DNA of 64,000 bases from a bacterium. Lineage in GTDB: Bacteria; AUK180. Within the stretch, counting starts at the first letter, position 1; each line of letters begins with the position of its first letter. Positions 3,879-26,766 of the stretch are shown here, in pieces. The position numbers and the translations under genes are program-made. Location of the stretch: positions 1-64,000 of the forward strand of contig JAGLGN010000030.1 of assembly GCA_023144005.1 (NCBI GenBank), written 5' to 3'. The notes under the pieces were generated by a model. That model was given only the letters and a program-made list of their open reading frames with translations, did no database searches and was not told the DNA's origin.

Positions 3879-3980
3879 GTACGACATGTCCCATATCTGG
3901 TTTGGGGTGCGGCGCGAAACGATTGTAACAGAAGAATTAATGTGTTAAACGAAATAATGGTTTTTCCGGTTACGGATGTG
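3879..3980 (-). repeat. 180-bp intergenic element, half copy A
   Basis: Read on the minus strand, this copy starts with CACATCCGTAACCGG and proceeds collinearly with the full copies to GGGACATGTCGTAC. It then stops: the hairpin right arm and the second stem-loop are missing and heptads follow. It has about 102 of 180 positions, with one extra A in the A-run near its start. Confidence 0.85.
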
Positions 3981-3997
3981 TTTATTGTTTTATTCTC

Positions 3998-4025
3998 CTC
4001 ACTTTACACCTCACACATCACACTT
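3998..4025 (+). repeat. Degenerate heptad array (4 units)
   Basis: CTCACTT, TACACCT, CACACAT, CACACTT in 7-nt phase, ending 10 bp before the next -35 box. Confidence 0.75.
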
Positions 4026-4034
4026 CACGGTAAT

Positions 4035-4063
4035 TTGACTTGTGTGCCCAAATCAAATATAAT
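4035..4063 (+). promoter_or_regulatory. Promoter, TTGACT-17-TATAAT, leaderless
   Basis: TTGACT (4035-4040), 17-nt spacer, TATAAT (4058-4063). The predicted start of transcription at 4069-4070 falls on the ATG at 4069, with no Shine-Dalgarno. Confidence 0.75.
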
Positions 4064-4068
4064 TGCAC

Positions 4069-4926
4069 ATGGATATGCTTTCATTTCTAATAGTCACCTA
4101 TAACTCTATTTCCACTATCGACAGGTGTATTAATTCTATCTATGATCATTTGGGCCATCTTTCCCTCGAGGTCATTGTCGTGGATAACGGTTCTTCAGAC
4201 GGTACCGCCGAATATGTGAAGAAGCATTTCCAAAAGGTGATAATACCTGAGAATACAGAAAATACGGGTTTCGCGAGGGGAGTTAACAAGGCATTCAGAA
4301 ACAGCAGCGGAGAGATATTGATAATATTGAACCCCGATACTTATCTGAATGATCCCTCTATTGAAAAAGCGGTTTCCTATCTCGCTAACAATCCGGATGT
4401 AGGCGTGCTGGGCCCCAAGATCAGCGATGATAAAGGGGATTTCCAATATTCCTGCAGAAGGGGCAAGGCGGACCCCATAATGGTTTTATGGAAGGATCTT
4501 GGATTGGAAAGAATACTGGGCAGGGGTTTTGATGAGTATAAATTGCATAGGATCTCTCCCGATCAGATCCTTGAAGTGGAATCGGTCTCCGGTTCCTGCA
4601 TGATACTCAAAAGTTCCCTCTTTCGTTCGCTCAATGGACTGGATACCAGATATTTCATGTACAGTGAGGATATCGATCTATGTCTGAAAGTGCAAAAAAT
4701 GGGAAAGAAGGTCATATACTTTCCCGAAATAAATGTACTGCATCTTGGGGGTGTTTCATCCAGGCAAACGCCGTTGCGTTCACTTCTGTATATGCATTTT
4801 TCCAAATTGATATTCATTAACAGGCATTATTTTCGATTTCCGCCATACGGCTTGTTACTGCAATTGCTTGTAGCGGCCCGTTTATTGATAAAGGCCTATG
4901 CCGCGTTGATAAGGCGGAACCCATGA
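4069..4926 (+). CDS. Family 2 glycosyltransferase (rhamnosyltransferase-like)
   Basis: The 285-residue protein has the GT-A fold signatures of family 2: SFLIVTYNS at the start, VIVVDNGSSDGT (about 35-46), and ILNPDTYL as the acidic metal-binding strand. These are followed by PKISDDKGDFQYSCRR and a GLDTRYFMYSEDIDL block typical of WbbL-like rhamnosyl or related transferases. The ATG at 4069 was chosen because the promoter places +1 there; the upstream TTG at 4063 is inside the -10 box and ATG 4075 is the only other option. Its stop overlaps the next gene by 4 bp. It likely adds a sugar to a lipid-linked glycan at the inner membrane. Donor and acceptor unknown. Confidence 0.9.
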   Translation: MDMLSFLIVTYNSISTIDRCINSIYDHLGHLSLEVIVVDNGSSDGTAEYVKKHFQKVIIPENTENTGFARGVNKAFRNSSGEILIILNPDTYLNDPSIEKAVSYLANNPDVGVLGPKISDDKGDFQYSCRRGKADPIMVLWKDLGLERILGRGFDEYKLHRISPDQILEVESVSGSCMILKSSLFRSLNGLDTRYFMYSEDIDLCLKVQKMGKKVIYFPEINVLHLGGVSSRQTPLRSLLYMHFSKLIFINRHYFRFPPYGLLLQLLVAARLLIKAYAALIRRNP

Positions 4927-5639
4927 GTTTTGGAGAGATACTGGGCCGTTTTTACTGCTCGATGGACAGGTATGAGCGGCATTACGCCGCGTCGAAGTTC
5001 CTGCGCGGCAAAGGGATCAAAAGGGTATTGGATGTCGGCGGAAGAGGAGCCATAATAAAGCGCTTTTTATCCGCGGATATTACCACTATCAATATTGACG
5101 GCAGCGGTGATGTCGAGTATGACGGTAAAAGGATGCCGTTTGAGGCTCTCTCATTTCCGGCAGTGATATCTCTTGATACTCTTGAGCATGTGTCAGAGGA
5201 GATGAGACAGGAATTCATTAAAGAATGTCTGCGCGTATCCTCGGAATGTGTCCTGATCAGCGTGCCATTGGGCTCCAAAGCGCACATACTTAAAGAGAAG
5301 GAGCTTTCACAGCGATATACCGAGGTATATGGACGCGAGCATCCCTATCTTGCCGACCATGTAGAAAAGGGTTTACCGACCCTTGGGCAGCTCGAGGAGT
5401 ATATATCATTATCAGGCCTTGAATGCAGGATGTTTTTCTCGGGTAATTTCCTCAAAGAAAGTGAGCGAATGATGAAAAAACTTGATCTCAAAGAAAAGGG
5501 CGGTATGATGAGCGGCCCCCTGCGGATATTTCTGAAAATCAGCTCATTAGCGGCCTTTCATCAGTTCAAATTGGAAACACAAGCGGATGATTTCACTAAT
5601 AGGGCTTATCTGTTCTTTGATAAAACAGATTCGCGGTAA
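4923..5639 (+). CDS. SAM-dependent methyltransferase, class I
   Basis: The 238-residue protein begins in an ATGA overlap with the glycosyltransferase, so the two are co-translated. The SAM-binding motif I is IKRVLDVGGRGAIIKRFL (about 35-52). INIDGSGDVEYDGKRMPF supplies the acidic residue and the switch region, and AVISLDTLEHV matches motif IV of small-molecule or sugar methyltransferases. With the neighbouring glycosyltransferases it probably methylates a glycan or its precursor; this is inference from context. Its last 34 bp overlap, tail to tail, the end of the minus-strand polysaccharide operon. Confidence 0.82.
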   Translation: MSFGEILGRFYCSMDRYERHYAASKFLRGKGIKRVLDVGGRGAIIKRFLSADITTINIDGSGDVEYDGKRMPFEALSFPAVISLDTLEHVSEEMRQEFIKECLRVSSECVLISVPLGSKAHILKEKELSQRYTEVYGREHPYLADHVEKGLPTLGQLEEYISLSGLECRMFFSGNFLKESERMMKKLDLKEKGGMMSGPLRIFLKISSLAAFHQFKLETQADDFTNRAYLFFDKTDSR

Positions 5640-6637
5640 TCTCTTGTCTTTTCTCTATATTCTTCTGCTCCCTCTTCATTAAGCATAGAAAGCATCAGTT
5701 CAGAGCATTTCTTTTCATCATAGGGTGAGAAGCGGTATTCCTGGAAGGGGAGTACCTCTTTTAAAGAAGATGTATCTGAGCAAATAGTAAGAGCGCCGAA
5801 ATAAACGGCCTCCAGGACAGGAAGCCCGAAACCTTCATATAGCGAAGGTAGCACGAATAGCGAACAATTGCCGTAAAGCCATGCCAATTGAGCGTCACTG
5901 ACATATCCGGTGAAGAGTATTGAATCTTCCAATCCCAATTCCCTGATCAATATTTTCAATGCGTAATGTTCATTGATATTCTTTCCTGTGAGCGCGAGAT
6001 GGAACCTTCGCCGGACCTTCGGGTCCAATAATGAATATGAGCGAAGCAGAAACGGGAGATTCTTTCCCTTTTCCATTGAACCGACGGTCAGGATAAATTT
6101 CTTCCCCTCCAATTCCTTTACAGATGCCGGGATCTTTGGGAATTGTCCTATTTCCAATTTGTGGATGCTGATCTTTTTCTTTGTATGTTGGGAAAGGTCA
6201 TTCCTGGTGGAAATAGATGGAACGATGAACTCATCCGCGTTCATTAATGCCGTAAAATAGAAAAAGTGATAGGCGGCAGATTTCAGGCGTGGGTATTTGC
6301 GCGGAACCTTATAGAGCATTAGATCGTTCATCAGAGCGATATAATGGCCGCATTTGAAAACGGGCAGTATATGTGTGGGGCTGAACAGAAACAGCCTGTT
6401 CAATACTATCATCAGAAGCGGTATGACAAAGAGCTGATAGAGCACTCTGATGAAAGTGAGATGTGAGTAAGGCATTGTTAGGACATTGAAATTCTTGAGC
6501 TCAAGAGGAAAATTGCGATTAATGAGGATCAGATAGCTCTTATCTTCACGGATATTCTCCAGATGCTGAATCACTCCACGGGCAACACCCGTTGGCCTAT
6601 CTCCAAGTATCATGGCATCAAATATTTTTCTTTTCAT
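5606..6637 (-). CDS. Family 4-type glycosyltransferase, end of polysaccharide operon
   Basis: This 343-residue GT-B fold enzyme has the C-terminal donor-binding half well marked: FILTVGSMEKGKNLPFLLRS, then LFTGYVSDAQLAWLYGNC and FVLPSLYEGFGLPVLEA with the EGFGLPVLE motif of family 4. I place the start at ATG 6637 (MKRKIFDAMILG) because the open frame upstream lies inside the preceding membrane protein gene; the overlap is then 20 bp. It is the last gene of the minus-strand operon and its stop overlaps the convergent methyltransferase. It is likely to transfer a nucleotide-activated sugar on the cytoplasmic face. Confidence 0.9.
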   Translation of the reverse strand: MKRKIFDAMILGDRPTGVARGVIQHLENIREDKSYLILINRNFPLELKNFNVLTMPYSHLTFIRVLYQLFVIPLLMIVLNRLFLFSPTHILPVFKCGHYIALMNDLMLYKVPRKYPRLKSAAYHFFYFTALMNADEFIVPSISTRNDLSQHTKKKISIHKLEIGQFPKIPASVKELEGKKFILTVGSMEKGKNLPFLLRSYSLLDPKVRRRFHLALTGKNINEHYALKILIRELGLEDSILFTGYVSDAQLAWLYGNCSLFVLPSLYEGFGLPVLEAVYFGALTICSDTSSLKEVLPFQEYRFSPYDEKKCSELMLSMLNEEGAEEYREKTRDYRESVLSKNR

Positions 6638-8024
6638 AGAGCCCTTTTGATACAAACGCCGCAAATATAAAGAAGTAGGCATTTACTTTGAAAACTATCG
6701 AAACATCATAAGAGATGGAATGGATCAGGAAAATGACCGCGGAAACCAGGAAGATGATACCCAGCCGGTCTCCTTTCTGCTGAAGATAGAGCTTAACTCC
6801 CCGGAAGATCATGATGCCTATCATAAAATAATAGGAGAGAAACCCCAATATGCCTGCGTTAACAAGCATTTTGACATAATTATTGTCCTGCCATACCGTT
6901 GGATAGCCAAGTCCTGTGAGCAGATGGGGCTGAATAATTTTCATCCATCTTCCCCATTTTATTATTCGAGTCTGCACCGTTCCCGGAAATTGCTTTCTGG
7001 GATTCACAATGGTTGTGGAGACCCGGATCTTCTCTAAGATGAAATCATTACTTAAGACGATCGACACAAAAGCGATACAGACCACGGCGATAATGGCGAT
7101 CCTTCCACCGGCTGAAAGCCGTCGTGAAAGGAGGGTGATGAGGAATAATCCTCCGATAAGCGCGGCATATGAACCGAAAGAGTATGTAAATAAAAAAATG
7201 AAGAAGAGGAATGCTCCGGTGAAGTAAAGAGCGATGTTTCTCGGCTTCTCAAGGATATAATAATAAACTATGCAGATGCTTAATGCGAGAAAGGTTCCAA
7301 AACTCTGTGGATTATCGAAGGTTGAGGGAATGCGGAAAAGCGATGCTTGATGATATGTTGTGTGATATAGGGAATATATTGAATCGGGAACCAGATTGTA
7401 CTTAGATAGCCAGCCGAATGCCGCCGTCGCCATCGCCGATAATAATAATATCTTCATGACCCGTTTTACCTCTCTTTTATCCGTGCTGAATGTTTCATGG
7501 ACGAAGTAATACAGAAATAATGGGAAAAAAGTTCTGAAAAAGACAAAGAAATTACTCATGGATACGGGTGAAACGGTGAGGGGATTTAATCGGGCATACC
7601 TGATATGCAGTATTGAATTAATGCGGTAAAGTTCATTGGAATCCATGCGGATCGCGGCGACCAGGATCGATAATATAGAAATGGCGACAAAGGAGAAAAT
7701 GGTGGCGGTAAGGATAGTATTGATAAGTTTCAGGTCATTGGCAATTATTTTCTTAACGATAAGAACACCGAATAAGACCAGGAATACACCGTCAGCGACA
7801 AAGATGTCCTTCAATCCGCCGACATTCAACGGGATATTGAATGAAAGGGGAAGAACGACGAGAAAGAGATAGAAAGCATACTTCAGGTCAATAAATGATA
7901 AGGTGATCAGCAAGATCACCGCAGAGAGAAGGAATGCGAGTTTTGGTTCTATCAGATAAAATACCGCAAATAAGAATAAGGATAGGGAAAATCCCCAGAT
8001 CAAACCGTTCCTAGCCACAGGCAA
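6618..8024 (-). CDS. O-antigen polymerase/ligase-like membrane protein
   Basis: The 468-residue polytopic protein has about ten to twelve hydrophobic segments from LIWGFSLSLFLFAVFYLI at the start to YFFIFAAFVSKG at the end. A long polar loop (about 300-375) contains RIIKWGRWMKIIQPHLLTGLG, the pattern seen in the large periplasmic loop of Wzy_C/WaaL proteins, where arginine and histidine residues act. Position after the flippase and among glycosyltransferases supports polymerisation or ligation of lipid-linked glycan units in the periplasm. Wzy and WaaL cannot be separated by sequence alone. Confidence 0.82.
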   Translation of the reverse strand: MPVARNGLIWGFSLSLFLFAVFYLIEPKLAFLLSAVILLITLSFIDLKYAFYLFLVVLPLSFNIPLNVGGLKDIFVADGVFLVLFGVLIVKKIIANDLKLINTILTATIFSFVAISILSILVAAIRMDSNELYRINSILHIRYARLNPLTVSPVSMSNFFVFFRTFFPLFLYYFVHETFSTDKREVKRVMKILLLSAMATAAFGWLSKYNLVPDSIYSLYHTTYHQASLFRIPSTFDNPQSFGTFLALSICIVYYYILEKPRNIALYFTGAFLFFIFLFTYSFGSYAALIGGLFLITLLSRRLSAGGRIAIIAVVCIAFVSIVLSNDFILEKIRVSTTIVNPRKQFPGTVQTRIIKWGRWMKIIQPHLLTGLGYPTVWQDNNYVKMLVNAGILGFLSYYFMIGIMIFRGVKLYLQQKGDRLGIIFLVSAVIFLIHSISYDVSIVFKVNAYFFIFAAFVSKGLYEKKNI

Positions 8025-8832
8025 ATCCTATATAATAAGAAAGCAGGCCGATCGCATACAGCGGCCTGAAAAAGGGAGGAGCCAATATGCTCTTTATTCT
8101 CATATAATGAGCACCCGGGAGAAATATTTGCAATGGGAACATTATCATTCTGAATAGGATATATACAGGCATCATGGTCTTGAAAAAAATATTCACTGTT
8201 CCGCTTGCTTTGCTTCGGTGAAGTTCTCCGATACCTTTTCCATACCAGAAAAACTGATTTAAGAACACCCAAAAGGATTCTTTGGCGGGATGATATACAA
8301 CAAGCCCTTTCAGCATAATAGTTCTTCTGCCCGTTCTCCTGACGCGTTTTCTGAAATCTGTGTCCTCTCCCGCAGTGATATCTTCATTAAAGAGTCCGAC
8401 CTCACTGTACAATTGCGCCTTTGAGGCCCAGCAGCAGGTTGCGATCCTATCAGAATCCTCGTCTCGATCCTTTCGCGGGATGATCTGTTCTCGCGGGATA
8501 TCTCTGGCAAGCCATCGCTGAAGCCGATTTGACCGCAGGGGAATAATGTGGCCACCGCCGACAAGGTCATTGGGGTATTTCTGGATCCCGTCAAGCAATT
8601 CCTTAATTACATCGTGATTGGGAAGGCGGATGTCATCGTCAAGGAAAACGATGAACTCTCCTTTTGCCTTTCTCAATCCGGTATTTCTTGCTTTTCCCAC
8701 CGGAGAAACGCCTTTAACAAGAACTATTTCAATATTGCTTTCAGATTGAGCGCGTATATCCTTCATTAACAGGGCTACATTGCCATCGCGGTTCCCGTCG
8801 CGGGAAATAATGATCACGGAGATCTTGATCAT
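8011..8832 (-). CDS. Family 2 glycosyltransferase
   Basis: A GT-A fold enzyme of 273 residues: MIKISVIIISRDG at the start, VGKARNTGLRKAKGEFIVFLDDD with the DDD metal site near residue 90, then a FNEDITAGEDTDFRKRVRR block. The C-terminal part carries two hydrophobic stretches (ILFRMIMFPLQIFL and AIGLLSYYIGFACG) that should hold it at the membrane. I chose the second methionine (8832) because it gives a 4-bp overlap with the preceding gene and starts right at the first beta strand. Donor unknown. Confidence 0.9.
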   Translation of the reverse strand: MIKISVIIISRDGNRDGNVALLMKDIRAQSESNIEIVLVKGVSPVGKARNTGLRKAKGEFIVFLDDDIRLPNHDVIKELLDGIQKYPNDLVGGGHIIPLRSNRLQRWLARDIPREQIIPRKDRDEDSDRIATCCWASKAQLYSEVGLFNEDITAGEDTDFRKRVRRTGRRTIMLKGLVVYHPAKESFWVFLNQFFWYGKGIGELHRSKASGTVNIFFKTMMPVYILFRMIMFPLQIFLPGAHYMRIKSILAPPFFRPLYAIGLLSYYIGFACG

Positions 8833-9821
8833 AGAAGATCCCTCAATGCGTTTCCCCACTCAGCTTTTACTGTCTCCGGAGAGAAATTCATTTGGAGAAA
8901 ATCCGCGGGGGAGTATTCTTCCCTACGGACCTCTTTCAAAGCACTTGAAAAGCGTTGCGCTTTCCATTTATTTACCATTATACCGGGGAAATCTCTTAGT
9001 TCTGGGAATAATCCTACCGGTGTTCCGATAACCGGCAGTCCGGAAGCAAATGCTTCCAATACGGTGTAGGAATTGCCCTCAAATCTTGAGGGGAAGAGCA
9101 GGACATCCGCCTGCGAATATATTTCGCCCATCTCGTAATGCGGCAGGTCATGAAGCAATTGTATATTTTTCGGTAAGTTCTTTACCGTATTTTTGCCGAA
9201 TAACACCGCCGTGAATTGAATATCAGGGTTCAGCATGGCGGTTTTTATGAAGATACCAAATCCCTTTTCCCGTGTGGCTCTCCCGACAAAAATAACCTTT
9301 TTCTCTGCGCTTTCGGGTTTGGCCACTGTCTTTACATTCGGGGCATTGTGAACTACATTGATATTGTCCATCCCTTCCTTTTTCAGTATAGCACCAATGA
9401 AGTGAGAAGGGGCGATATTAATGGCATTCCGTCCGCTCAGCTTTTCGTATCTGATCTTTCTCAAAGTGATCGCCCACCAGCTCTTTTGCAGAGGGTGATA
9501 GCAGTGATCGCGAAAGCCGAACCAATTGCCCTGAAATACATTGATACGGGGGATCGGAAGGTTCTTCGGCGCCGCCCATCCTCCGAGTCCGAGCGTAAGG
9601 ATAGCGTCACAGTCCATATTCTCTTTTCTTCCGTAAAAAATATTCCATGCTTCCTTTGCCCTTAGATACTCCGCAGAGCTACCGCTTTCCTTTGAGGGAA
9701 ATGTATATTCAACTTCAGAAAAGAACTTAGGCAGCTGAGAAATGAAGAATTCCGCTCCTCCCGCTATCCGGTCTAATCGGACCTGGGAAATGACATGAAT
9801 CTTCAGGGGGAGTTTATCCAA
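8829..9821 (-). CDS. Family 4-type glycosyltransferase
   Basis: This is a 330-residue GT-B protein. N-terminal KIHVISQVRLDRIAGGAEFFI is the acceptor-side glycine-rich loop. The donor side shows KKVIFVGRATREKGFGIFIK, LLHDLPHYEMGEIYSQADVL and FPSRFEGNSYTVLEAFASG, matching the ExxxxxxxE pattern of family 4 (here EGNSYTVLE). It overlaps both neighbours by a few bases, consistent with one operon and coordinated glycan assembly. The sugar transferred cannot be deduced. Confidence 0.9.
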   Translation of the reverse strand: MDKLPLKIHVISQVRLDRIAGGAEFFISQLPKFFSEVEYTFPSKESGSSAEYLRAKEAWNIFYGRKENMDCDAILTLGLGGWAAPKNLPIPRINVFQGNWFGFRDHCYHPLQKSWWAITLRKIRYEKLSGRNAINIAPSHFIGAILKKEGMDNINVVHNAPNVKTVAKPESAEKKVIFVGRATREKGFGIFIKTAMLNPDIQFTAVLFGKNTVKNLPKNIQLLHDLPHYEMGEIYSQADVLLFPSRFEGNSYTVLEAFASGLPVIGTPVGLFPELRDFPGIMVNKWKAQRFSSALKEVRREEYSPADFLQMNFSPETVKAEWGNALRDLL

Positions 9822-10572
9822 AATCCATCTCCTCTTTTAAAATGATGCTTTCACCTTTCTGAAGCCGCTTATTATGGCAGATCTGAAATGACATTCCGGG
9901 ATAAAGCCTCTCCCGGGCGTAGGTAAAGAGACCTCGGAGCGGGGGAGTCTTCAGAAGCCAGCTGTCCTTTTTTATCCGGTTACCTTTGATCGTTTTTGAA
10001 AAAACCTCATCCATGGAGAATGAAAGGCCTCTCGTATGCAATATCCAATTTCCGTCCCTTTGAAATCGCAGATAATCCGCTCTTTCAAAGCCATCCGCAA
10101 GCAAAGAGGTCTTAACTTTGATGCTGTTCGCATCAAAGGTCAGTGTGCTGGGATTTGGAATAACATTATAAAGGTTGAATCGCTTTTTCGGCTTCATTAA
10201 CTTACTATTTAATTGGAGCTTGAAACGCCCGGGAATACATGTCCTTATTGCAAGATCTCCAAGATAGGCCTCTTCGCTTATAACGGTCAGGGTAAGGGAG
10301 CGGTATACCTTGCCGGACTCGAATTCATCGGTGTACAGGAAGCTGAATCTCCCGTTTTCCAGGGCGATGATGCCGCGGGTTTCAAATGTCCCGCCATCAT
10401 TGCTGATCGAAATATCTGAACCTTCACTGTTCAGGCCGCCCATTTTTTCAAGAGAGAAGAAGGAATACCAATTACCCATCTCAAAACCCCATCCTGAAAA
10501 GAAGTACTCCTTTCCCTTTAAAGTCAGTATGCGTGAAATAAGGTTGCGTTCGCTATCAATTTCCTTCATCAA
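9814..10572 (-). CDS. Unknown protein of the polysaccharide operon
   Basis: The protein has 252 residues, with no signal peptide or membrane segment. It is predicted to be mostly beta: many short alternating strands such as GKEYFFSGWGFEMGNWYSFF, ISISNDGGTFETRG and DYLRFQRDGNWILHTRG. I do not recognise a family. The repeated aromatic and glycine content could suit a carbohydrate-binding or lyase-like beta sandwich, but no catalytic motif is visible. It sits between two glycosyltransferases with overlapping ends, so it should be made together with them and act on the same glycan. Confidence 0.6.
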   Translation of the reverse strand: MMKEIDSERNLISRILTLKGKEYFFSGWGFEMGNWYSFFSLEKMGGLNSEGSDISISNDGGTFETRGIIALENGRFSFLYTDEFESGKVYRSLTLTVISEEAYLGDLAIRTCIPGRFKLQLNSKLMKPKKRFNLYNVIPNPSTLTFDANSIKVKTSLLADGFERADYLRFQRDGNWILHTRGLSFSMDEVFSKTIKGNRIKKDSWLLKTPPLRGLFTYARERLYPGMSFQICHNKRLQKGESIILKEEMDFG

Positions 10573-11638
10573 GCCATTTCAATTGTGTTTCGTAGAATTC
10601 TTTAATAAGATCGGGCCAGTAAAAAACTTCCCTGTTCTTCATTACATTGCTTATGTGTTCGCCGTAGCTCTTTCTTATATTGTCAAAGAGGCCCGGAGTG
10701 TATTCTTCGGGATTGATATCGTAACCCACACCGTACTCCCGTGTTTCCCGTGAAATAATGCTTCTTCCAAATGAAACATTTATGGTAGGTATTCCCATAG
10801 CGAGGTATGTATAGAACTTTGATGGTATGGAATAATTGTAAATGGTTTTTACAAAGGTAAGCCCCGCAGAGTATTCCTTGAGCTTATTTTTGAATTTCTC
10901 TTCGGTGATCGGGGGCAGGAAGCGGATGAAGTTGAACTTCTCTTCAGTCGATACCCGCTGTACCTCCCTCAATTGTTCGGATGGAAAACAGTAGAAATCG
11001 AAGACCGCCTTCTCCTTTTCGATGTCTTCCCGGTATATTGAAAAGAACTTCTTGAAATTAATTACGGAATGCATCAGATTGAAAGCCCCGAAATAGAGAA
11101 ATTTGGAAGTATATTCTCTTTCATGGGAGAAGAGCACTGCATCGTATCCGTTGGGGAGGAAATAAAAGAGCCGTTCTACACCCATATCCCTATAGACCTC
11201 GCGTATCCCTGGCGAATTGATCACAGCCGCCTTTGCTCCCGCTAAAAGAGCCCTTTCATAATATTCCAGCATCTTTTCTTTAATGAGATTTCCGGATTTA
11301 GCTTTGTGAGTATAGAGAAGCGGGTCTCTTATATCATATATCAAAGGGATCCCTTTGTCATGCGCGGCTTTGACCGCTGAAATTCCGATCGCCGGAGGGA
11401 CGGAAAAGATGATAAGGTCAGGGGATGATGAAAAGATCTTTCTTTTCAGGAGCCCTAAATTCTTAAAATTGACCACCTCAAGGTGATGCTGTGAGTTCGA
11501 AACGGCATCCTGCTGAGCGGTTATGAGCGTAACTTCATGTCCCTTAGAAACAAAGAATTTAGTGAAATTGCCTACACGGTACGGTGCCGCCCCCAATGCC
11601 GGCGGCGCCCAGAATGAAACGATGCTTATCTTTGCCAT
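10556..11638 (-). CDS. Glycosyltransferase, GT-B fold
   Basis: The 360-residue enzyme opens with AKISIVSFWAPPALGAAPYR and VGNFTKFFVSKGHEVTLIT, typical for family 4 transferases. PLIYDIRDPLLYTHK corresponds to the inner acceptor region and VINSPGIREVYRDMG to the hinge before the donor domain. In the C-terminal half SIPSKFYTYLAMGIPTINVS replaces the usual EGFGLxxLE block, a form common in exopolysaccharide biosynthesis transferases. Start and stop overlap the neighbours. Sugar specificity unknown. Confidence 0.85.
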   Translation of the reverse strand: MAKISIVSFWAPPALGAAPYRVGNFTKFFVSKGHEVTLITAQQDAVSNSQHHLEVVNFKNLGLLKRKIFSSSPDLIIFSVPPAIGISAVKAAHDKGIPLIYDIRDPLLYTHKAKSGNLIKEKMLEYYERALLAGAKAAVINSPGIREVYRDMGVERLFYFLPNGYDAVLFSHEREYTSKFLYFGAFNLMHSVINFKKFFSIYREDIEKEKAVFDFYCFPSEQLREVQRVSTEEKFNFIRFLPPITEEKFKNKLKEYSAGLTFVKTIYNYSIPSKFYTYLAMGIPTINVSFGRSIISRETREYGVGYDINPEEYTPGLFDNIRKSYGEHISNVMKNREVFYWPDLIKEFYETQLKWLDEGN

Positions 11639-12861
11639 TTGGATATCCCCCTCTTATCATCTTTTAAAAAAATCTTCTCGCTGTCTTCCGTATAAAAATC
11701 ATTGTCGATCTTAATTGTTTCCTTTCTCCCGGATAATTCCGTAAGGTCTCCTTCATAGAAAAAGGACAGAAGGAAAAAGAGATACGCTTCCCATCGAATT
11801 ACGGGTATACGGTTCCTCCATTCCTGCTCAAATCCGTAGGCATTGGGAAAACTTCCGTTATTTAATTGATAACGGTCAATGAAATCCGCGATGGTCTCAA
11901 TATTCAATGCTGCCGGTTCTGAAAGCAGGCTTGAATAGAGGTGAAGAAATATCATGTCGATCGCTGATCTCGCTATGAAACGGGGGTCTTTCAAACAAAC
12001 AAAATCCCGTTTATTGTAATAATTCGTAAATTTCTTCGGGGTACTTCTTATGGAGAAGGCTTTTCTGAGTATCCTTGAGCTTTGAGTTTCAATACAGCGA
12101 TAGCCCGCATAATAAAGCCCGGTTTCACTTTCTTGAAGTGACTGAATAAAAGGCAGAAGTTTTTTAATAGATGAATAAAGTGTATCTTTTCTCAATAATT
12201 CATATGTCCACAAAAGCGCGACACCGGTTTTTGCATTGTAGAATGAGAGCTGATCCGAGAGGTGGAGGCCGTGGAAGAAACCACCGTTATTATGCTGCAT
12301 TTGCATAACGAATTCCTCTATGTCATCAAGAACAAAGTCACAGATGGCGGCTTTACTGCCGGAAAGTTCGATAACTTTGTAGAGTAAAAATAAGAGCATG
12401 GCATTCTGATTCACGACACGATTGGAGAGTATTCCATTTCTTCTCATATGCCTGCTCATGAATCTAATACTGCTGAGCACTGCCTTTATGTATTTCTCGT
12501 CCTTAAAGCTCTCATACGCCTTCAGGAGAGCAATATCCGCCGCTATGTGAATGATCGGCGGGCTTTGTGTTGAACTGACATCCCCAAAGGCATTGTTATA
12601 ACTTCCATCCTTATTTTGCGAACTCAAAATAAAATCAAGCCATTTGAAGAGTTCTTCAGGCGGTTTGGCTGCGGGATTCTTCTTCAGGATGTGTATCAAT
12701 CCGAGTATCATTGGGAAGGTATTCATTATATTCGGAAGTGATTTGAATTCCGCGTCCCAATATGTAGAGGTTACGGAGTGAAGCGATCCCGAAGGATCAT
12801 CAAATGTCTTGACATGGTTAAAGAGAGCGGACATGCTGTCACGGATCTTCTGCCTATACAT
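11626..12861 (-). CDS. Alpha/alpha-toroid protein, possibly glycan-modifying
   Basis: The 411-residue protein is built of recurring helical hairpins with the signature of alpha/alpha-barrel enzymes: SQNKDGSYNNAFGDV, MQHNNGGFFHGLHLSD, LQESETGLYYAGYRC and YQLNNGSFPNAYGFE repeat a QxxNGSF-type turn. This architecture is shared by terpene cyclases, polysaccharide lyases and glucuronyl epimerase-like proteins. No DxDD or other defining catalytic motif is seen and no signal peptide is present. ATG 12861 was preferred to the upstream start inside the flippase gene. From context it could modify or measure the glycan; this is inference. Confidence 0.6.
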   Translation of the reverse strand: MYRQKIRDSMSALFNHVKTFDDPSGSLHSVTSTYWDAEFKSLPNIMNTFPMILGLIHILKKNPAAKPPEELFKWLDFILSSQNKDGSYNNAFGDVSSTQSPPIIHIAADIALLKAYESFKDEKYIKAVLSSIRFMSRHMRRNGILSNRVVNQNAMLLFLLYKVIELSGSKAAICDFVLDDIEEFVMQMQHNNGGFFHGLHLSDQLSFYNAKTGVALLWTYELLRKDTLYSSIKKLLPFIQSLQESETGLYYAGYRCIETQSSRILRKAFSIRSTPKKFTNYYNKRDFVCLKDPRFIARSAIDMIFLHLYSSLLSEPAALNIETIADFIDRYQLNNGSFPNAYGFEQEWRNRIPVIRWEAYLFFLLSFFYEGDLTELSGRKETIKIDNDFYTEDSEKIFLKDDKRGISKWQR

Positions 12862-16330: not shown

Positions 16331-16338
16331 ACTTCATA

Positions 16339-19904: not shown

Positions 19905-21279
19905 AATAAAAACCGGTATACTGAAATATCTGGTCGCCATTCTCGGGATTTCCGGTGTCCTTCTGTCACCGCTGCATCCACTGCCCGGCCTGGCGGTCGC
20001 TTTGATCTGTTCGGCGGCCCTTAATTACATCGAACCCGTATTTTCCAATCTCATGATCCTTCTGTCAATTTCATTCGGGATCTATTTAACGATGAAAGGC
20101 ATGATCACGGGATATACGCTTCTTTCGATAATAGTCGCGATCGCGGCGGTCTTCTACTTTCGAGGTAAACTTTTGGAGAGTGAGAACATATTCCGCTCAC
20201 GCAAACAAAGCAGCAGTGAGGATATTTCCTATAACTCGGACATCCTGGAAAAAAACCGTTCGCAGATCAATTACTTCGATATCAAGATCGAGGATTACAA
20301 GTATCTGACACGCGGTTTATTGGATATCACCAATCTTCTGGATCAGGACAAGGACCTTGCCGCTCTGCTTCAGTATTCTTCAAAATATTTCAAAGGCACC
20401 GGGTACGTACTTAGATATGAAGACAGAAATTGGGCATTGAAGGAAAAGCATGGCCGTGGAAATGTGAATGTTGAAAATTTTAATTTCCAATCCGGTATCC
20501 TCAAAGATGTGATCATGAAAAAGAAGACTCTCTATGTGGAGAATATCGACTCGGACTTTCATTATACCTTCATCAACGGAATAAAGACCGTAAAATCCAC
20601 CATAGTTTTTCCCATACTTGTGAATTATCAGGTAGAGGGACTTTTAAAATGGGATTTTGCAGTTCCCACAGAATTTGAATACCATAAGATCAAGATCATT
20701 CAGACACTTGTTCATTTCACTTCATTGAACCTTTCACTTCTTAACACGCTTGAAGAGCTGGAAAAGGTGAGTATCATCGATGAGCTCACTCAGATCTACA
20801 ATAAAAAGGAATTCGATTCGCGGCTGAAGGATTTTGTAAAGACGGGCAGAAATTTAGGAAAACCCCTTTCACTGCTGATGATCGATATTGATCATTTCAA
20901 GCAGGTAAACGATACATATGGTCATCTGGACGGGGATCTGGTACTATCACAGCTTTCTGCTTTATTGAAGAAGTATGTAAGGATATCCGACATCATATTC
21001 AGGTATGGCGGGGAAGAATTTGCCGTGATACTCCCTGATACCTCTGAAAGTGATGCCGCTATCCTTGCCAGGCGCCTATGTAAAAGTACCGAAGAGAATA
21101 CATTCTATTTGAAAAAGAAAAGGATCCGCCTGACGGTCACGGTCGGGGTCTCAGAGCTGACTAATGAGATATATACTCCGAAGATGATGATCGAAACGGC
21201 GGACAGTGCTTTGTATTGGGGCAAGGAGAATGGAAGGAATCGTGTTATATGTTACTCAGAGATAAAAGAAAAGCGATAA
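19897..21279 (+). CDS. Membrane GAF-GGDEF diguanylate cyclase
   Basis: The 460-residue protein starts at a TTG within an 8-bp overlap. Several hydrophobic segments fill residues 8-90. A GAF-like domain follows (about 130-275; TKFIR-type core STIVFPILVNYQVEGLLKW), then a GGDEF domain. The active site is GGEEF (371-375). The inhibitory I-site RISD lies exactly five residues upstream, so product feedback is expected. DELTQIYNKKEFD and IDIDHFKQVNDTYGH are the usual start and metal-binding strands. It should make cyclic-di-GMP at the inner membrane in response to a signal read by GAF. Confidence 0.93.
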   Translation: MSEIKTGILKYLVAILGISGVLLSPLHPLPGLAVALICSAALNYIEPVFSNLMILLSISFGIYLTMKGMITGYTLLSIIVAIAAVFYFRGKLLESENIFRSRKQSSSEDISYNSDILEKNRSQINYFDIKIEDYKYLTRGLLDITNLLDQDKDLAALLQYSSKYFKGTGYVLRYEDRNWALKEKHGRGNVNVENFNFQSGILKDVIMKKKTLYVENIDSDFHYTFINGIKTVKSTIVFPILVNYQVEGLLKWDFAVPTEFEYHKIKIIQTLVHFTSLNLSLLNTLEELEKVSIIDELTQIYNKKEFDSRLKDFVKTGRNLGKPLSLLMIDIDHFKQVNDTYGHLDGDLVLSQLSALLKKYVRISDIIFRYGGEEFAVILPDTSESDAAILARRLCKSTEENTFYLKKKRIRLTVTVGVSELTNEIYTPKMMIETADSALYWGKENGRNRVICYSEIKEKR

Positions 21280-22100
21280 TATTAGGCTCCGGCGGCGCCA
21301 AAGGCCTCGCACATCTCGGAGTGTGGAAAGTGCTCAAGGAGATGGGAATGGACTCCGTTGATTTTATCGCCGGCACATCCATGGGTGCTGTGATCGGGGC
21401 GATGATGGCTAATAACCTCAATGTCCTGGAGCTCATTCGAGTAATGAGAAATATGTCGCAGACGGATTGGCTCAAGATCTTTTCTCCCCACATTCCGGTC
21501 TCGGGCTTTGTTTCGGGTCGGAACGTCAGAAAATTTCTGGAAAAATTCCTAACGGTAAACCAGATTGAAGAATTACAGGTGCCGTTCGGCTGCGCTGCCT
21601 ACAATTATGATCTTTGCGATCCCGAATTCCTGACTTCAGGAGGGTTATTAGACGCTCTCAGGGCCAGTATGTCCATACCCATAATTTTTGATCCCTATAA
21701 GATAGGGGATACATACTATCTTGACGGCGGCCTCGGGAATCCGCTTCCCATTAAGGATGTAGAAGCGCTTGGTATCGATAAATATCTCGTCGTGAATGTT
21801 CTGCAGAAGCCGGTCAAAAGGGATATTGACAAGGCATTGCTGAAGCGCCTGAATATTTTAAAAAGAAAGCACAAAGAAGACGAACCCAAATTATTCGATA
21901 TCGCCCTTAGAAATATCTCTATCATTGAATGGGAACTGGCGAGAAGTCAGTTGGAGCTGCATAAGCCCAAATATCTAGTCACGATCGACACCTCCGAGTT
22001 CAATATTCTACAATACCATTCAGCGAAGGAGATCATCCTTCAGGGTGAGAATGCCGCTCTGAGAGAGCGTGATATGTTGGAAGATTTCTTGAAAGGATGA
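21249..22100 (+). CDS. Patatin-like phospholipase
   Basis: The 283-residue protein has the alpha/beta acyl-hydrolase core of bacterial patatins: glycine-rich oxyanion loop ILGSGGAKGLAHLG, nucleophile in GTSMG (S44), and catalytic aspartate in the DGG triad (D159, YYLDGGLGNPLP). This is the RssA/YlbK-like short form without an outer-membrane domain. The first methionine of the open frame lies 33 bp upstream inside the GGDEF gene; ATG 21249 begins just before the first strand. It probably hydrolyses membrane lipids or acyl esters. It is the last gene of the operon that starts at 16339. Confidence 0.92.
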   Translation: MLLRDKRKAIILGSGGAKGLAHLGVWKVLKEMGMDSVDFIAGTSMGAVIGAMMANNLNVLELIRVMRNMSQTDWLKIFSPHIPVSGFVSGRNVRKFLEKFLTVNQIEELQVPFGCAAYNYDLCDPEFLTSGGLLDALRASMSIPIIFDPYKIGDTYYLDGGLGNPLPIKDVEALGIDKYLVVNVLQKPVKRDIDKALLKRLNILKRKHKEDEPKLFDIALRNISIIEWELARSQLELHKPKYLVTIDTSEFNILQYHSAKEIILQGENAALRERDMLEDFLKG

Positions 22101-22106
22101 CAAGCA

Positions 22107-22155
22107 AATAGTGAATACTGAATAGTGGAGAAATGAAGAATGAAGAATGAAGAAT
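22107..22155 (+). repeat. Degenerate heptad array (7 units)
   Basis: AATAGTG, AATACTG, AATAGTG, GAGAAAT and three GAAGAAT units run in unbroken 7-nt phase starting 7 bp after the patatin stop. Confidence 0.85.
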
Positions 22156-22172
22156 GGGGAAAGGAACGGAAA

Positions 22173-22352
22173 CACATCCGTAACCGGAAAATCACAATTT
22201 CGCTTCTTTCACTAAAACCATCCGTTAAAATAATAGAACGCCGGAGTGTAGGTAGATATGGGACATGCCGTACTCCGCAGGAGTTCGACTGTCCCGGTGT
22301 AAAAGTTCCAAGCAAAGAGTTGACAGGAAGCAGAGCGTATAAACTCTTTGCC
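22173..22352 (+). repeat. 180-bp intergenic element, full copy C
   Basis: The copy runs from CACATCCGTAACCGG to AAACTCTTTGCC, exactly as long as copy D and with the same internal spacing (TATGGG at offset 84), although the middle has diverged. Hairpin 1 (22260-22295 region) has ACTCC-GCA-GGAGT where D has ACGCC-GCA-GGCGT, a paired change. Hairpin 2 has GCAAAGAGTT and AACTCTTTGC arms. Its last 33 bp form the first codons of the downstream 5'-nucleotidase if the TTG start is right. Confidence 0.88.
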
Positions 22353-23693
22353 CTCTTAATTATTGCCGTTGTTCTATGTGTCTCCGCATCAATATTCGCC
22401 GGGGATACTACAGTTGCGCTTATTGAGCTGAATATACTTCACACGAATGATATTCACGGCCATATTAAGCCCTATTCCAATGGTATTGGCGGAATGGTGA
22501 ACCTTGAAGCCCATGTGAAGAAATTGAGGGCAGAGGGCCGCTGCGATCTTCTAATAGATTCCGGGGATCTCATTCATAAAGGTAACTCCATAGACCTTAA
22601 CTCCAATGGCGAGGCGACCTTCAAGTTATTTGATCTTCTGGATTATGATATCTTCACTCCGGGAAATAATGAGCTGAAGGAGCCGTTTCAGAGGTATTTG
22701 GCATTCAGGGATTCCCTTGATGCGCCCTTTATCGGGTGTAATATCAAAAATAACGGCGCGAGTATCTTTGATGACGCATATAAGGCCTTTGACCTTAAAG
22801 GTATAAAGATCGCCGTCGTGGGGCTTTCCTACTGCGGAAAGAACTCCTATGTCAAGGGTAGGTATGACGGATGGGACAATGTTGAATTCCTGCCATGGGA
22901 GGAGGCATTGGCAAATACCTTCTCTTCGATGGAAAAGGCCGATATAATTATCTTGGTGTCTCATAACGGTATGGACTTTGACAGGAATGTGCTGACAAAA
23001 TTTCCGCAGATCGATATAGTGATCTCGGGACATGATCACCGCGTCACAAAAATGCCTGATCAGGCCGCGGATTCAATTCTTGTCGAGACCGGCTGCTATC
23101 TAAATGATCTGGGCGTTCTGACATTGATGGTTTCCGCAGAGGATAAAAAGATCTCCGATGTGAAATATGAATTGATCCCGCTTGTTCCCCTCGGCAAAGG
23201 CAAGGGTAAATTGGCAAGAAGGATCAGGAAATACGATAGGAAATACAATAAAAAAGGCAAAGAAGTACTGGGATATCTGAAAGAATCCCTGGATTCATTT
23301 GAAAGATCAGCGGAATTTACCGCCAGGGCTTTCTGCCGCAGTGCAAAAACGGATTTTGCGCTCATCAACGATGGCAGCGAGAGGGAATTCCTGCCCGCCG
23401 GCCCCGTCACCGCGGAATGGCTGAGGATGAAGTCGCCGTATCAGAATGACCTTGTGGTCGCCGAAGTCGATGTAGAGAGGATAAGAGCCCTTGTGGAGCG
23501 ATTTAAGGGGCAGAATGTCCTCTTCTTCTGGTCAAATGCGGATCTCCCCGAAAAGGGTACTGTCAAGGTCGCGATGGATTCCTATCTTGCCGAAGCAATG
23601 AAACTGGAAAGCACTACCGTGGGTATGACCGAATTTGAATCCCAGGCGGATTATCTCAGTGTACTGTTCCATAAATACGGTAACAATGACTGA
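22320..23693 (+). CDS. Secreted 5'-nucleotidase/UshA-family protein lacking its catalytic dyad
   Basis: The 457-residue protein has a signal peptide (LFALLIIAVVLCVSASIFAG), a metallophosphatase domain and a short nucleotidase C-terminal domain. Metal ligands are mostly kept: NDIHGH, SGDLIHKGN, the Asn of GNNELK (N116), SHNGMD and SGHDHR. The catalytic His-Asp pair of the family, in GNHxxD, is replaced by N117 and K120. The C-terminal NGGxR-type substrate motif is also altered (NDGSERE). It may therefore bind nucleotides without cleaving them. I prefer TTG 22320; the only other in-frame start, ATG 22140, would translate the heptads and most of the 180-bp element. Start moderately sure. Confidence 0.75.
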   Translation: MTGSRAYKLFALLIIAVVLCVSASIFAGDTTVALIELNILHTNDIHGHIKPYSNGIGGMVNLEAHVKKLRAEGRCDLLIDSGDLIHKGNSIDLNSNGEATFKLFDLLDYDIFTPGNNELKEPFQRYLAFRDSLDAPFIGCNIKNNGASIFDDAYKAFDLKGIKIAVVGLSYCGKNSYVKGRYDGWDNVEFLPWEEALANTFSSMEKADIIILVSHNGMDFDRNVLTKFPQIDIVISGHDHRVTKMPDQAADSILVETGCYLNDLGVLTLMVSAEDKKISDVKYELIPLVPLGKGKGKLARRIRKYDRKYNKKGKEVLGYLKESLDSFERSAEFTARAFCRSAKTDFALINDGSEREFLPAGPVTAEWLRMKSPYQNDLVVAEVDVERIRALVERFKGQNVLFFWSNADLPEKGTVKVAMDSYLAEAMKLESTTVGMTEFESQADYLSVLFHKYGNND

Positions 23694-23778
23694 TGTTATT
23701 TTGCTCAACACATTTTCTATAGCAATCAGAAGACTGAAAAAGAGGCGTGGAGAATGTTATCGTGTGATTCTATACATT

Positions 23779-23958
23779 GCGAAGAGTGTACAATTGCTTC
23801 ACAATTTTCAACTCTTCACTTGGAACTTTTACATCGGGACAGACGAACGCCGGCGGCGTACGACATGTCCCATATCTTGATTGGGATGCGGCGTGATATG
23901 ATTGGAACAGGAGAATTAAAGTGTTAAACGAAATACTTATTTTCCGGTTACGGGTGTG
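23779..23958 (-). repeat. 180-bp intergenic element, full copy B (reversed)
   Basis: Read on the minus strand it starts CACACCCGTAACCGG at 23958 and keeps TATGGG at offset 84. Hairpin 1 has loop GCC in place of GCA. Hairpin 2 has GAAGAGT and ACTCTTC where C and D have AAAGAGT and ACTCTTT, a compensating A-T to G-C change; its loop is one base longer and contains an extra AATTG/CAATT stem. Confidence 0.87.
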
Positions 23959-23968
23959 TGCCTTTTTC

Positions 23969-24010
23969 CACTTCGTACATCTCGCATCTTACATCCAGCA
24001 TCGTACCTCG
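23969..24010 (+). repeat. Degenerate heptad array (6 units)
   Basis: CACTTCG, TACATCT, CGCATCT, TACATCC, AGCATCG, TACCTCG in strict 7-nt phase. The same units reappear at 52194-52221. Confidence 0.85.
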
Positions 24011-24069
24011 TTCACTCGTGAACGACAGTCATCGGATTTATGGAACAGTACACTAGGCGCACTAGGTAA

Positions 24070-25056
24070 GTGAAGCGTTTTTTAGAACCTATTTTACTGA
24101 TAATCGTTCTCCTTTTCCTTGTGAATCTACTTCTGAATTTCACCCTGAAAAAGATCGCTGTACCGGGCCGTGACGGCTACGGTTTCATATCTCCCGATGC
24201 CGAATTGGGGTTTTACCATAATCCATCCTTGAGCTTCCGTACACAGGACAAAGGGCGTGTCTGGAGCGATGAAAGGGGATTCAGGCCATGCGGTACGGGC
24301 AATGCTTCCGCTGATACTGTTTATGTCCTTGGCGATTCCATGATCGACCTTCTGGTGGATAATTGTAAGCTGCCCGCCGCCTTCATGGGGGGTGATTCTA
24401 AGGACAAAAGATATATCAGCAGCGGCTGTATGTCATTCTCAACGATGCAGGAATACATTTTATTAAAGAGGATACATCAGAAGTATCATGGCAAGGAATT
24501 CCATATATATGTTTACACGGGAAATGACCTCTTTCAGAATACGCAGGGCATTTCAACCCTTCCGGTGATAAGAGAGACCGATGATGGATTTGAATTGATA
24601 TCACCGGAGAAAACAAGAGGCATTCCCATTACGAAAAGATTTATACTATTTTCTATCATCGAATCCTATTTTTTCGGCAAGAATGAGGATGATCCGTCAT
24701 ACTGGCATGATCTGATGTATGGCTATACTCTCGATTCGATGGAAGAAAATCTCGATGAGATGCTGAATAAGACCGCATTCGTATTGAATCTGATAAATGA
24801 ATATTCTACGGCAAATGATATCAGCGTAAGATATTACATTATCCCAACATCAATGGAAATAACTTCCCCAAATGATGAGGGGGCAGTAAAAATGGCTCGA
24901 TTACGCCATGCATTTATTGATATATTGGCATCTCATAGCGCTTCTTTTACGGATCTCACTCCGGTGATCAACAAGGTATATGAGCCGGGATTCTATGATC
25001 CTGTGAATTTCCATCTGACCTCCGATGCGTGGAAAAAGATTTTGGGGACACATTGA
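24070..25056 (+). CDS. SGNH/GDSL-like hydrolase with N-terminal membrane anchor
   Basis: The 328-residue protein starts at a GTG and has one N-terminal membrane helix (PILLIIVLLFLVNLLLNF, about 6-23), leaving the rest outside the cytoplasm. SGNH blocks are recognisable: GDSM with the nucleophile S90 in VYVLGDSMI, a glycine in SSGCMSFSTM, TGNDL for the Asn block, and DPVNFHLT with the catalytic His near 315. This suits an O-acetyl esterase or acyltransferase-associated enzyme acting on surface glycans. No acyltransferase partner is seen. The 5' side is repeat-derived and no strong Shine-Dalgarno precedes the GTG, so the start is uncertain by a few codons. Confidence 0.75.
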   Translation: MKRFLEPILLIIVLLFLVNLLLNFTLKKIAVPGRDGYGFISPDAELGFYHNPSLSFRTQDKGRVWSDERGFRPCGTGNASADTVYVLGDSMIDLLVDNCKLPAAFMGGDSKDKRYISSGCMSFSTMQEYILLKRIHQKYHGKEFHIYVYTGNDLFQNTQGISTLPVIRETDDGFELISPEKTRGIPITKRFILFSIIESYFFGKNEDDPSYWHDLMYGYTLDSMEENLDEMLNKTAFVLNLINEYSTANDISVRYYIIPTSMEITSPNDEGAVKMARLRHAFIDILASHSASFTDLTPVINKVYEPGFYDPVNFHLTSDAWKKILGTH

Positions 25057-25059
25057 TAT

Positions 25060-25088
25060 TTGATTTTTCATTGATTAAGGATTAAAAT
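25060..25088 (+). promoter_or_regulatory. Promoter, TTGATT-17-TAAAAT
   Basis: TTGATT (25060-25065), 17-nt spacer, TAAAAT (25083-25088). Predicted +1 near 25095 gives a 21-nt leader that includes GGAGGAG at 25107-25113. Confidence 0.6.
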
Positions 25089-25115
25089 ATACATAGCATT
25101 CTTCTTGGAGGAGAA

Positions 25116-26129
25116 ATGAACAATTCCAAAATCGCAATTTTAATAGGCCTATTACTTGTCTCCTGCGTGATCCAGGCACGGATGACCGTCGCTGTACAGG
25201 ACTTTACAGCTGAGAATTGTGAGGCCTATATCGGCGCGGTGAGCTCTCGTGAGTTCAGAAATGTACTTGTTGGGAATAAAGAGCTGACGGTTCTGGATAG
25301 AAGTTCAATGGAAATAATTCTCAAGGAGCAGGATTTTCAAATCTCCGGATGTACTTCAGCTGAATGCGCCATAGAGATGGGAAAATTGCTTGCCGCCAAT
25401 TTTATCATTACAGGTACGGTATCAAAAATGGGCAATGCCTATTATATCAGCATCAATTGTATCGGCGTGGAAACAGGGGAGATCAAATACTCAAAGAGTA
25501 ATTATATCGAAGGGGGAGTAGAGCTGGTCATGCCTCTATCTCACAATCTTGCCGTCGAGTTTTCAAATCAGTATTTCGGTACCAATTTCCCGATGAGGGC
25601 ATTATCCAGACAGATCGCTCCTCCCACCACCAGTAATAACAATCTTCAGCTCAATCTTCAACCGCAGCTGCCCCTGATGAAAAAGGAAGGGATATATTAT
25701 CTCAGAGGGAAGAAGATGAACTGGAAGGACCTGAGAAAAGTATTGCGCGGAAACCCCGCAAGCGCCCCTTATTACTCGAAACTTGACAAATTGAACAAAG
25801 CTATGATACCTGTGGGGATAATAACGATCGCAAGTGAAGTTGTTTGCGGAGTTTCCGTTATCATATGGGCGCTGTCATCCCCTGATGATCTGGGCGATTC
25901 CTGGCTCTCTGAAGATGCTCGTTCTGCCTGGGGCAATGTTGCGCTTATCACAGCGATACCATTCACTGTGGGACTGATAGTCCTCTTGGCGACGGCCGGG
26001 CCTTCGAAGAAACTGATAGAAGATGCTGTGAGGGCTTTTAATTCAGATCAGGCATCTAATTTGAAATTGAAGGGATTCTTCACCTTGAATGAGAATGGCC
26101 CCCGAGGCGGACTCAGTCTAGTATTTTGA
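25116..26129 (+). CDS. CsgG/LpoB-like secreted protein with C-terminal membrane segments
   Basis: The 337-residue protein has a Sec signal (IAILIGLLLVSCVIQA). The next 150 residues have the CsgG-type alpha/beta pattern: MTVAVQDFTAENCE, FRNVLVGNKELTVLDRSSME, ILKEQDFQISGCTSAECAIE and a FIITGTVSKMGNAYYIS strand pair. Such domains often occur in outer-membrane lipoprotein assemblies and penicillin-binding-protein activators. The cysteine after signal residues (VSC) might be a lipobox, though its spacing is not ideal. Near residues 230-290 are two hydrophobic stretches. Strong GGAGGAG supports the ATG. The stop is followed after 8 bp by the 15-bp repeat tag. Confidence 0.7.
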   Translation: MNNSKIAILIGLLLVSCVIQARMTVAVQDFTAENCEAYIGAVSSREFRNVLVGNKELTVLDRSSMEIILKEQDFQISGCTSAECAIEMGKLLAANFIITGTVSKMGNAYYISINCIGVETGEIKYSKSNYIEGGVELVMPLSHNLAVEFSNQYFGTNFPMRALSRQIAPPTTSNNNLQLNLQPQLPLMKKEGIYYLRGKKMNWKDLRKVLRGNPASAPYYSKLDKLNKAMIPVGIITIASEVVCGVSVIIWALSSPDDLGDSWLSEDARSAWGNVALITAIPFTVGLIVLLATAGPSKKLIEDAVRAFNSDQASNLKLKGFFTLNENGPRGGLSLVF

Positions 26130-26136
26130 GAGACAA

Positions 26137-26151
26137 GCTTCGCAGTGCACA
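26137..26151 (+). repeat. 15-bp stop-proximal tag, copy 2
   Basis: GCTTCGCAGTGCACA, starting 8 bp after the stop of the CsgG-like gene. A perfect hairpin follows, TGCTGAGC-TT-GCTCAGCA (26157-26174). Confidence 0.8.
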
Positions 26152-26156
26152 AGCAA

Positions 26157-26174
26157 TGCTGAGCTTGCTCAGCA
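26157..26174. repeat. Perfect 8-bp inverted repeat with 2-nt centre
   Basis: TGCTGAGC-TT-GCTCAGCA. It lies 27 bp after a stop codon but is followed by the AGTGTGA heptads, not by a T-run, so a simple terminator is doubtful. Confidence 0.65.
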
Positions 26175-26209
26175 AGTGTGAAGTCTGAAGTGTGAAGTGT
26201 AAAGTTGGA
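26175..26209 (+). repeat. Degenerate heptad array (5 units)
   Basis: AGTGTGA, AGTCTGA, AGTGTGA, AGTGTAA, AGTTGGA in phase. Confidence 0.85.
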
Positions 26210-26226
26210 AAATAGATAGCCGGGTG

Positions 26227-26258
26227 AGGCTGATAAGGTGATAGGGTGATAGGGAAAA
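26227..26258 (+). repeat. Octad array (4 units) at the 5' end of the next gene
   Basis: AGGCTGAT, AAGGTGAT, AGGGTGAT, AGGGAAAA in 8-nt phase. The likely GTG start codon of the zinc-ribbon lipoprotein lies in the third unit. Confidence 0.75.
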
Positions 26259-26518
26259 TAGGAAAACCAACGAATGCGATCTGGCGCACTTTGATTATCT
26301 TACTTGCATTTTCTGCTATTGTATTTTCCTGTCAGTCCGGAAGTAATTGGGGTTCAGAATATCTATGTGAGGACTGTGAAAAAAGCGCATTCACTTGTGA
26401 CATCGGAACATGTGCGGTTTGCGGCAGAGGTACAAGCAGCGGTGCATTTGAATTGTGTAATCATTGCGCTGATAAATTAGGTAAGTGCCAGGCATGTCAA
26501 AAAGACCTGTTTGAGTGA
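26246..26518 (+). CDS. Small zinc-ribbon lipoprotein
   Basis: The 90-residue protein has a lipoprotein signal (RTLIILLAFSAIVFSC, acylated cysteine near 28). It is followed by a short mature part rich in CxxC pairs: LCEDCE, TCAVCGRG, LCNHCAD, CQACQK. That is enough for one or two structural zinc sites; an extracytoplasmic zinc ribbon of this kind is unusual. The GTG start lies in an octad repeat, so the first ten residues (IGKIGKPTNA) are partly repeat-derived and the exact start is unsure. Ends 8 bp before another partial repeat tag. Function unknown. Confidence 0.6.
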   Translation: MIGKIGKPTNAIWRTLIILLAFSAIVFSCQSGSNWGSEYLCEDCEKSAFTCDIGTCAVCGRGTSSGAFELCNHCADKLGKCQACQKDLFE

Positions 26519-26525
26519 ACTAACA

Positions 26526-26557
26526 GCAGTGCACAAGGCACAAGTAACAAGAGCACA
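26526..26557 (+). repeat. Partial tag plus heptad-like run
   Basis: GCAGTGCACA (matching the last 10 bp of the 15-bp tag), then AGGCACA, AGTAACA and AGAGCACA, the last unit with one extra base. It starts 8 bp after the lipoprotein stop. Confidence 0.6.
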
Positions 26558-26586
26558 AGCGTCCCAGATAAAATGCAACTAATGTT

Positions 26587-26766
26587 CACATCCGTAACCG
26601 GAAAATCGTTATTTCGTATAACCCATTATTTATCCTGTTACAATCATGTCACGCCGTACCCCAAACAAGATATGGGACATGTCGTACGCCGCAGGCGTTC
26701 GTCTGTCCCGATGTAAAAGTTCCAAGCAAAGAGTTAACAGGAAGCGTAGCGTGTAAACTCTTTGCC
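26587..26766 (+). repeat. 180-bp intergenic element, full copy D (reference)
   Basis: I use this copy as the reference. Hairpin 1 (26674-26709) has outer arms GGGACA/TGTCCC and inner arms ACGCC/GGCGT around a GCA loop, with T-T mismatches between. Hairpin 2 has arms GCAAAGAGTT and AACTCTTTGC around a 20-nt loop. Copies C and B keep both hairpins with paired substitutions. There is no open frame of note and no terminal inverted repeat. Confidence 0.88.

Follow-up and report, generated by a model that had tools for sequence, protein, structure and literature searches.

Two genomes of an uncultured bacterial genus each harbor about 60 small, apparently mobile, intergenic DNA repeats with two hairpins, whose pairing has been preserved by evolution. 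Four of them lie in the 64,000-nucleotide stretch of DNA analysed here (the window). We consider these repeats to be probably non-autonomous mobile elements whose hairpins act as DNA and which are moved in trans, with Y1 transposases as the leading candidates for the mobilizing enzyme. Small structured repeats are common in bacteria, and how those lacking terminal inverted repeats (TIRs) or tags move is an open question. The approximately 120 copies across two close species show which parts of such a repeat are kept (the two hairpins), swapped (three modules) and broken (the hairpin tips), thereby rendering a DNA-hairpin mechanism directly testable.

Copies, extent and paired hairpins of the repeat

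The initial annotation had correctly placed and oriented four copies in the window, including the recognition of one (copy A) as a mere left half. We label them by position (A, 3879; B, 23779; C, 26587; D, 22173), the C and D of the initial annotation appearing to be swapped. The features are as follows:

3871..3980, minus strand: copy A, left half (element positions 1-109), with its break in the upper stem of hairpin 1
22173..22358, plus strand: copy D, element positions 1-186; left type 2, hairpin-1 TA haplotype, hairpin-2 type 1
22260..22295, plus strand: copy D hairpin 1 (GGGACA...TGTCCC)
22312..22351, plus strand: copy D hairpin 2, containing a TTG at 22320
23731..23958, minus strand: copy B, element positions 1-226; left type 1, hairpin-1 GC, hairpin-2 type 2
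23836..23871, minus strand: copy B hairpin 1
23779..23819, minus strand: copy B hairpin 2
23658..24054, no strand: TIR-bounded composite of 397 bp carrying copy B, with the ends AGTGTACTGTTCCATAAAT.../...ATTTATGGAACAGTACACT
26587..26805, plus strand: copy C, element positions 1-219; left type 1, hairpin-1 GC, hairpin-2 type 1
26674..26709, plus strand: copy C hairpin 1
26726..26765, plus strand: copy C hairpin 2

The count of four greatly understates the family. With copy C as the query, blastn against the whole genome (2.67 Mb in 38 contigs) recovered 42 pieces with 79-100% identity, the next best DNA match to a copy having E-values down to 1e-78. The search for further copies in this and related genomes that the initial annotation had proposed, carried out with a covariance model built from 31 full copies, yielded at least 56 matches in the source genome and at least 62 in that of a sister species (G001), both counts being lower bounds, as at most 64 candidates per genome were scored under stricter filters. 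The same model found no match in 58 other genomes (three share its family, two its class, and 53 are more distantly related), where very weak copies could escape it, and none of the plasmids and viral contigs searched contained a match to the element. Thus, as far as searched, with G001 as the only other genome of the genus, the family is confined to a single bacterial genus. Exact 18-mer matches in unrelated genomes were put down to chance, since the model, where it was run on those genomes, gave no score outside the sister genome. Pairwise comparison of 51 full copies with 400 bp of flank on each revealed a sharp left boundary, with 738 of 1240 copy pairs having the start of homology no more than 10 bp from position 1, and a right end that fades, mostly at positions 190-230; accordingly, the unit is about 229 bp long and not 180 bp, as first described.

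Hairpin 1 has the form GGGACA-N-G-N-CGT-ACGCC-GCA-GGCGT-TCG-N-C-TGTCCC and is joined by the conserved linker GATGTAAAAGTTCCAAGC to hairpin 2, which opens with GC(A/G)AAGAGT and closes with ACTCTTTGC or ACTCTTCGC. In the 31-copy alignment 96.8% of the stem cells pair, as against 34-49% when the partners are slid, which, taken together with the E-values of the DNA matches, excludes chance. Both hairpins are real, and the covariation noted earlier in each stem is exactly as had been described. It also extends to many more copies and withstands the statistical test that had been called for: among the 101 matches of the two genomes, two-sided change is seen at 13 of 28 pairs (5.0 in shuffles and 3-5 with slid partners) and in 95 cells versus 29 in shuffles, with none of 500 shuffles reaching these pair or cell counts. 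Being fitted to the model, this alignment is biased in its favor; a MAFFT alignment of the 31 copies, which was not so fitted, agrees in direction (four pairs, 26 cells). Kinship among copies inflates such tests, and two of the commonest stem changes are module haplotypes, each of which may represent one event, whereas several rarer pair types are separate changes. In one copy (L184:668) the interior of hairpin 2 is wholly different and yet paired (GAGTTTAGAC...GTCTAAACTC). The stem changes lean to G.U on the plus strand, with 58 G.U versus 19 A.C cells (15 versus 10 when pair columns alone are considered), a leaning that is not decisive as to strand polarity.

Presence/absence, modules and tip insertions

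The aligned stretches of the two genomes are about 95% identical, and orthologous empty sites, where a copy is found in one genome and is absent in the other, occur in both directions, as in the insertion polymorphisms that MITEs show between close genomes. Copy C is absent in G001, as is copy B along with its whole TIR composite. Copy D is common to both genomes, with about 228 bp in G001 replacing 17 bp of its hairpin 1, and the left half of copy A is likewise shared, with different continuing sequence in each genome. Some gains are bounded by AGTG TIRs (L123:9417-9827) and others are not (L123:17479-18013); several of the sites are replacements rather than clean insertions, and many of the differences involve larger composites and not the 229-bp unit alone. 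Gain rather than loss is the simpler reading of these sites, because of the clean empty sites and the mobile-element borders. At copy B the composite also alters the end of the upstream gene, which reads ...ADYLSVLFHKYGNND in the window (23600-24060) and ...ADYLSTTGTIEGK in G001 (L270 2700-2840).

The 397-bp element around copy B has imperfect TIRs of about 30 bp, and the initial claim that the repeat lacks terminal inverted repeats is hence wrong for this copy. A second repeat family, seen at 23658-24054 of the window and throughout the genome, consists of approximately 273-bp elements with the TIRs AGTGNNCTGNNNCATAAA, of which there are 92 ends genome-wide (none for the backward control); these elements show no obvious target duplication, and no transposase was found for them. 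AGTG inverted repeats lie within 300 bp on both sides of copy B and seven other copies; of 86 copies, 56 show none within this distance on either side. Homologous composites occur at three loci. Some copies also travel as cargo in a second, TIR-bounded element. An AGTG pair spanning 1.77 kb (L129) was considered as a potential autonomous element and rejected, as it encloses no transposase but a gene that we take, judging from its translation, to be dehydratase/epimerase-like. The flanks of the repeats, most markedly the left one, are enriched in period-7 repeats (mean match 0.40 versus a background of 0.26). These are degenerate intergenic arrays of the GTGTGAA, GTACGAG, AGTGCACAAG and GAACAAT types, seen in both genomes (G000 and G001), often with reverse-complement arrays on the opposite side of the element.

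The unit comprises three modules, each in two versions (left types, hairpin-1 haplotypes and hairpin-2 types), and all eight combinations were found among the 57 copies that could be typed at all three. Partial copies break at positions 74-82, at 95-109 (the right piece starting from 111-116) and at 158 (the right piece at 168); the latter two fall in the upper stem and loop, of hairpin 1 and hairpin 2 respectively. Measured from GGGAC to CTGTCCC, the hairpin-1 interval is 46-47 nt long in 75 copies; eight others have 201-289 nt, with several different left junctions, and one of the eight (L180) may join two neighboring copies. The interior of hairpin 1 has been replaced outright in at least seven copies, and the insertions at hairpin 2 and near position 82 are of the second, approximately 273-bp, family. 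An alternative core, GGGACGG...CCGTCCC, lies between the same left and right modules and resembles the inverted repeats of the Y1 genes:

L106, L107, L129, L132, L143, L162, L165 and L171: alternative core GGGACGGCAGGTTGAA...CACCTCCGTCCC

It is conceivable, if doubtful, that extruded hairpin tips are natural sites of breakage and insertion, such that elements nest tip by tip, swap cores while their ends stay fixed, and build up into composites. The tip insertions could also be a few old events spread by copying. Were the former true, hairpin extrusion in living cells would be readable from sequence alone.

Candidate mechanism and alternative explanations

The unit's own ends show no significant TIR (local score 7.0 versus a shuffled mean of 5.7, P = 0.20), while the composite around copy B, as a positive control, scores 21 in the same test. 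At the nominal ends, of which the right one is fuzzy, 27 of 39 copies have no target duplication and two have one of 4-5 bp. In the stretches read, which cover part of the genome, no transposase gene was found inside a copy. The earlier observation that no transposase lies nearby is not contradicted; elsewhere in the genome there are five Y1 transposase genes (PF01797, over the cut-off), whose loci have no covariance-model match and adjoin no copy. GGGAC inverted repeats flank most of the Y1 genes that were read in the genus and in its relatives; they are like the alternative core and, more loosely, like hairpin 1:

L100-L104 and the relatives' L188-L200: inverted repeats flanking Y1 genes, [A/G]GGGACGGT followed by 12-16 specific bases

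These motifs are too short to prove mobilization and are taken only as a lead. Single-stranded hairpins are the substrates of Y1 enzymes of the IS200/IS605 group, which do not require TIRs or target duplications; this would fit their involvement. The five Y1 (HUH) transposases of this IS200/IS605-like group are the leading candidates because of this mode of action and for a second reason: the GGGACGGT inverted repeats in their own flanks are similar to the GGGAC...GTCCC stem of hairpin 1. We posit that copying or movement of the repeat in trans would depend on its hairpins as folded DNA, be it single-stranded or cruciform. Selection on the spreading copies would then preserve the pairing even as the sequence drifts, and breakage, along with the insertion of other repeats, would take place at the exposed tips.

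The initial annotation had left open whether the fold is kept as RNA or as DNA. That the copies are structured-RNA genes or leaders (small RNAs or cis-regulatory elements), whose pairing is kept by RNA function and which spread by recombination, is in our estimate unlikely. Strong two-sided covariation and the two hairpins with a conserved linker are features expected of such an RNA, and the strand lean to G.U would also suit it. However, no Rfam family reaches its gathering threshold, the copies come and go between two such closely related species, and the wholesale replacement of the hairpin-1 interior also stands against an RNA role, as does the lack of a T run after hairpin 2, for which reason an intrinsic terminator was rejected too. 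Moreover, the 59 copies with open reading frames on both sides, as mechanically called, are found in every orientation to their neighbors (23 convergent, 27 co-directional and nine divergent), with an excess of convergent gaps over the background of gaps of at least 150 bp (67 of 309). This is evidence against a cis-regulatory leader, and a riboswitch or leader was accordingly dropped as the main reading; the pattern argues for a repeat settling behind genes. A unit without mobility of its own, carried passively by the AGTG...CACT TIR element and the heptamer-repeat cassettes and spread by them and by recombination between copies, appears quite unlikely: the eight copies bracketed by AGTG repeats, the homologous composites at three loci and an empty site (site 1) whose insertion is bounded by AGTG TIRs speak for it, but most copies lack such a TIR nearby, and the left end of the unit itself marks a sharp limit of homology among copies. 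A retroelement-like RNA that returns to DNA by reverse transcription would likewise be structured, multi-copy and free of terminal inverted repeats, but is highly improbable given that no reverse transcriptase (PF00078) was found in the 96%-complete genome and that there is no consistent target duplication. Taken together, the presence/absence differences, the module shuffling, the tip insertions and the lack of a consistent gene context favor a DNA-level mobile repeat, the fold being compatible with an RNA function as well.

One copy may have been put to use as the start of a protein-coding gene. The TTG at 22320, which lies in hairpin 2 of copy D, is in frame with a metallophosphoesterase gene (PF00149; MTGSRAYKLFALLIIAVVLCVSASIFAG...) and gives a signal-peptide-like start, which is kept in G001 despite the altered left half of the copy there. 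This hairpin may supply the start codon and signal-peptide N-terminus in both species:

22320-23693 of the window, and 1226-2788 of L270: metallophosphoesterase reading from copy D hairpin 2

Comparison with known repeat systems

The family resembles the REP, BIME and REPIN sequences mobilized by RAYT (TnpA-REP) in being intergenic, multi-copy, hairpin-forming and devoid of a gene of its own, in a genome with Y1 genes (PMC3116915, PMC8266576, PMC2817692). REP-type repeats are palindromes of 20-40 bp that are tagged at one end by GTAG or CGTC (PMC3733652). In contrast, the present 229-bp unit has two dissimilar hairpins, neither with GTAG or CGTC at the foot of its stem (consensus feet GATAT/GGGACA...TGTCCC/GATG and CCAA/GCAAAGAG...CTCTTTGC/CCCG), and no copy flanks a Y1 gene. 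With prokaryotic MITEs, such as ERIC, Correia and RUP, it shares size, copy number, intergenic location, stable stem-loops and occasional in-frame coding use (PMC10969869). Unlike these, the unit's own ends are without TIRs or a consistent target duplication, and no partner IS was found in the stretches read. It probably works like a REP- or MITE-like non-autonomous element, and we do not file it as a member of either class because tested defining features of these were not found.

Pneumococcal BOX elements are modular, with exchangeable parts and secondary structure. Compared by description, these elements, which are named in a review (PMC10969869), are similar to the present family in their modular composition and folding; here, the modules recombine freely at three positions, and other repeats replace the tips. 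Finally, in potentially supplying an in-frame start codon and signal-peptide N-terminus, copy D, the one such case among the window copies, parallels the palindromic elements of Rickettsia.
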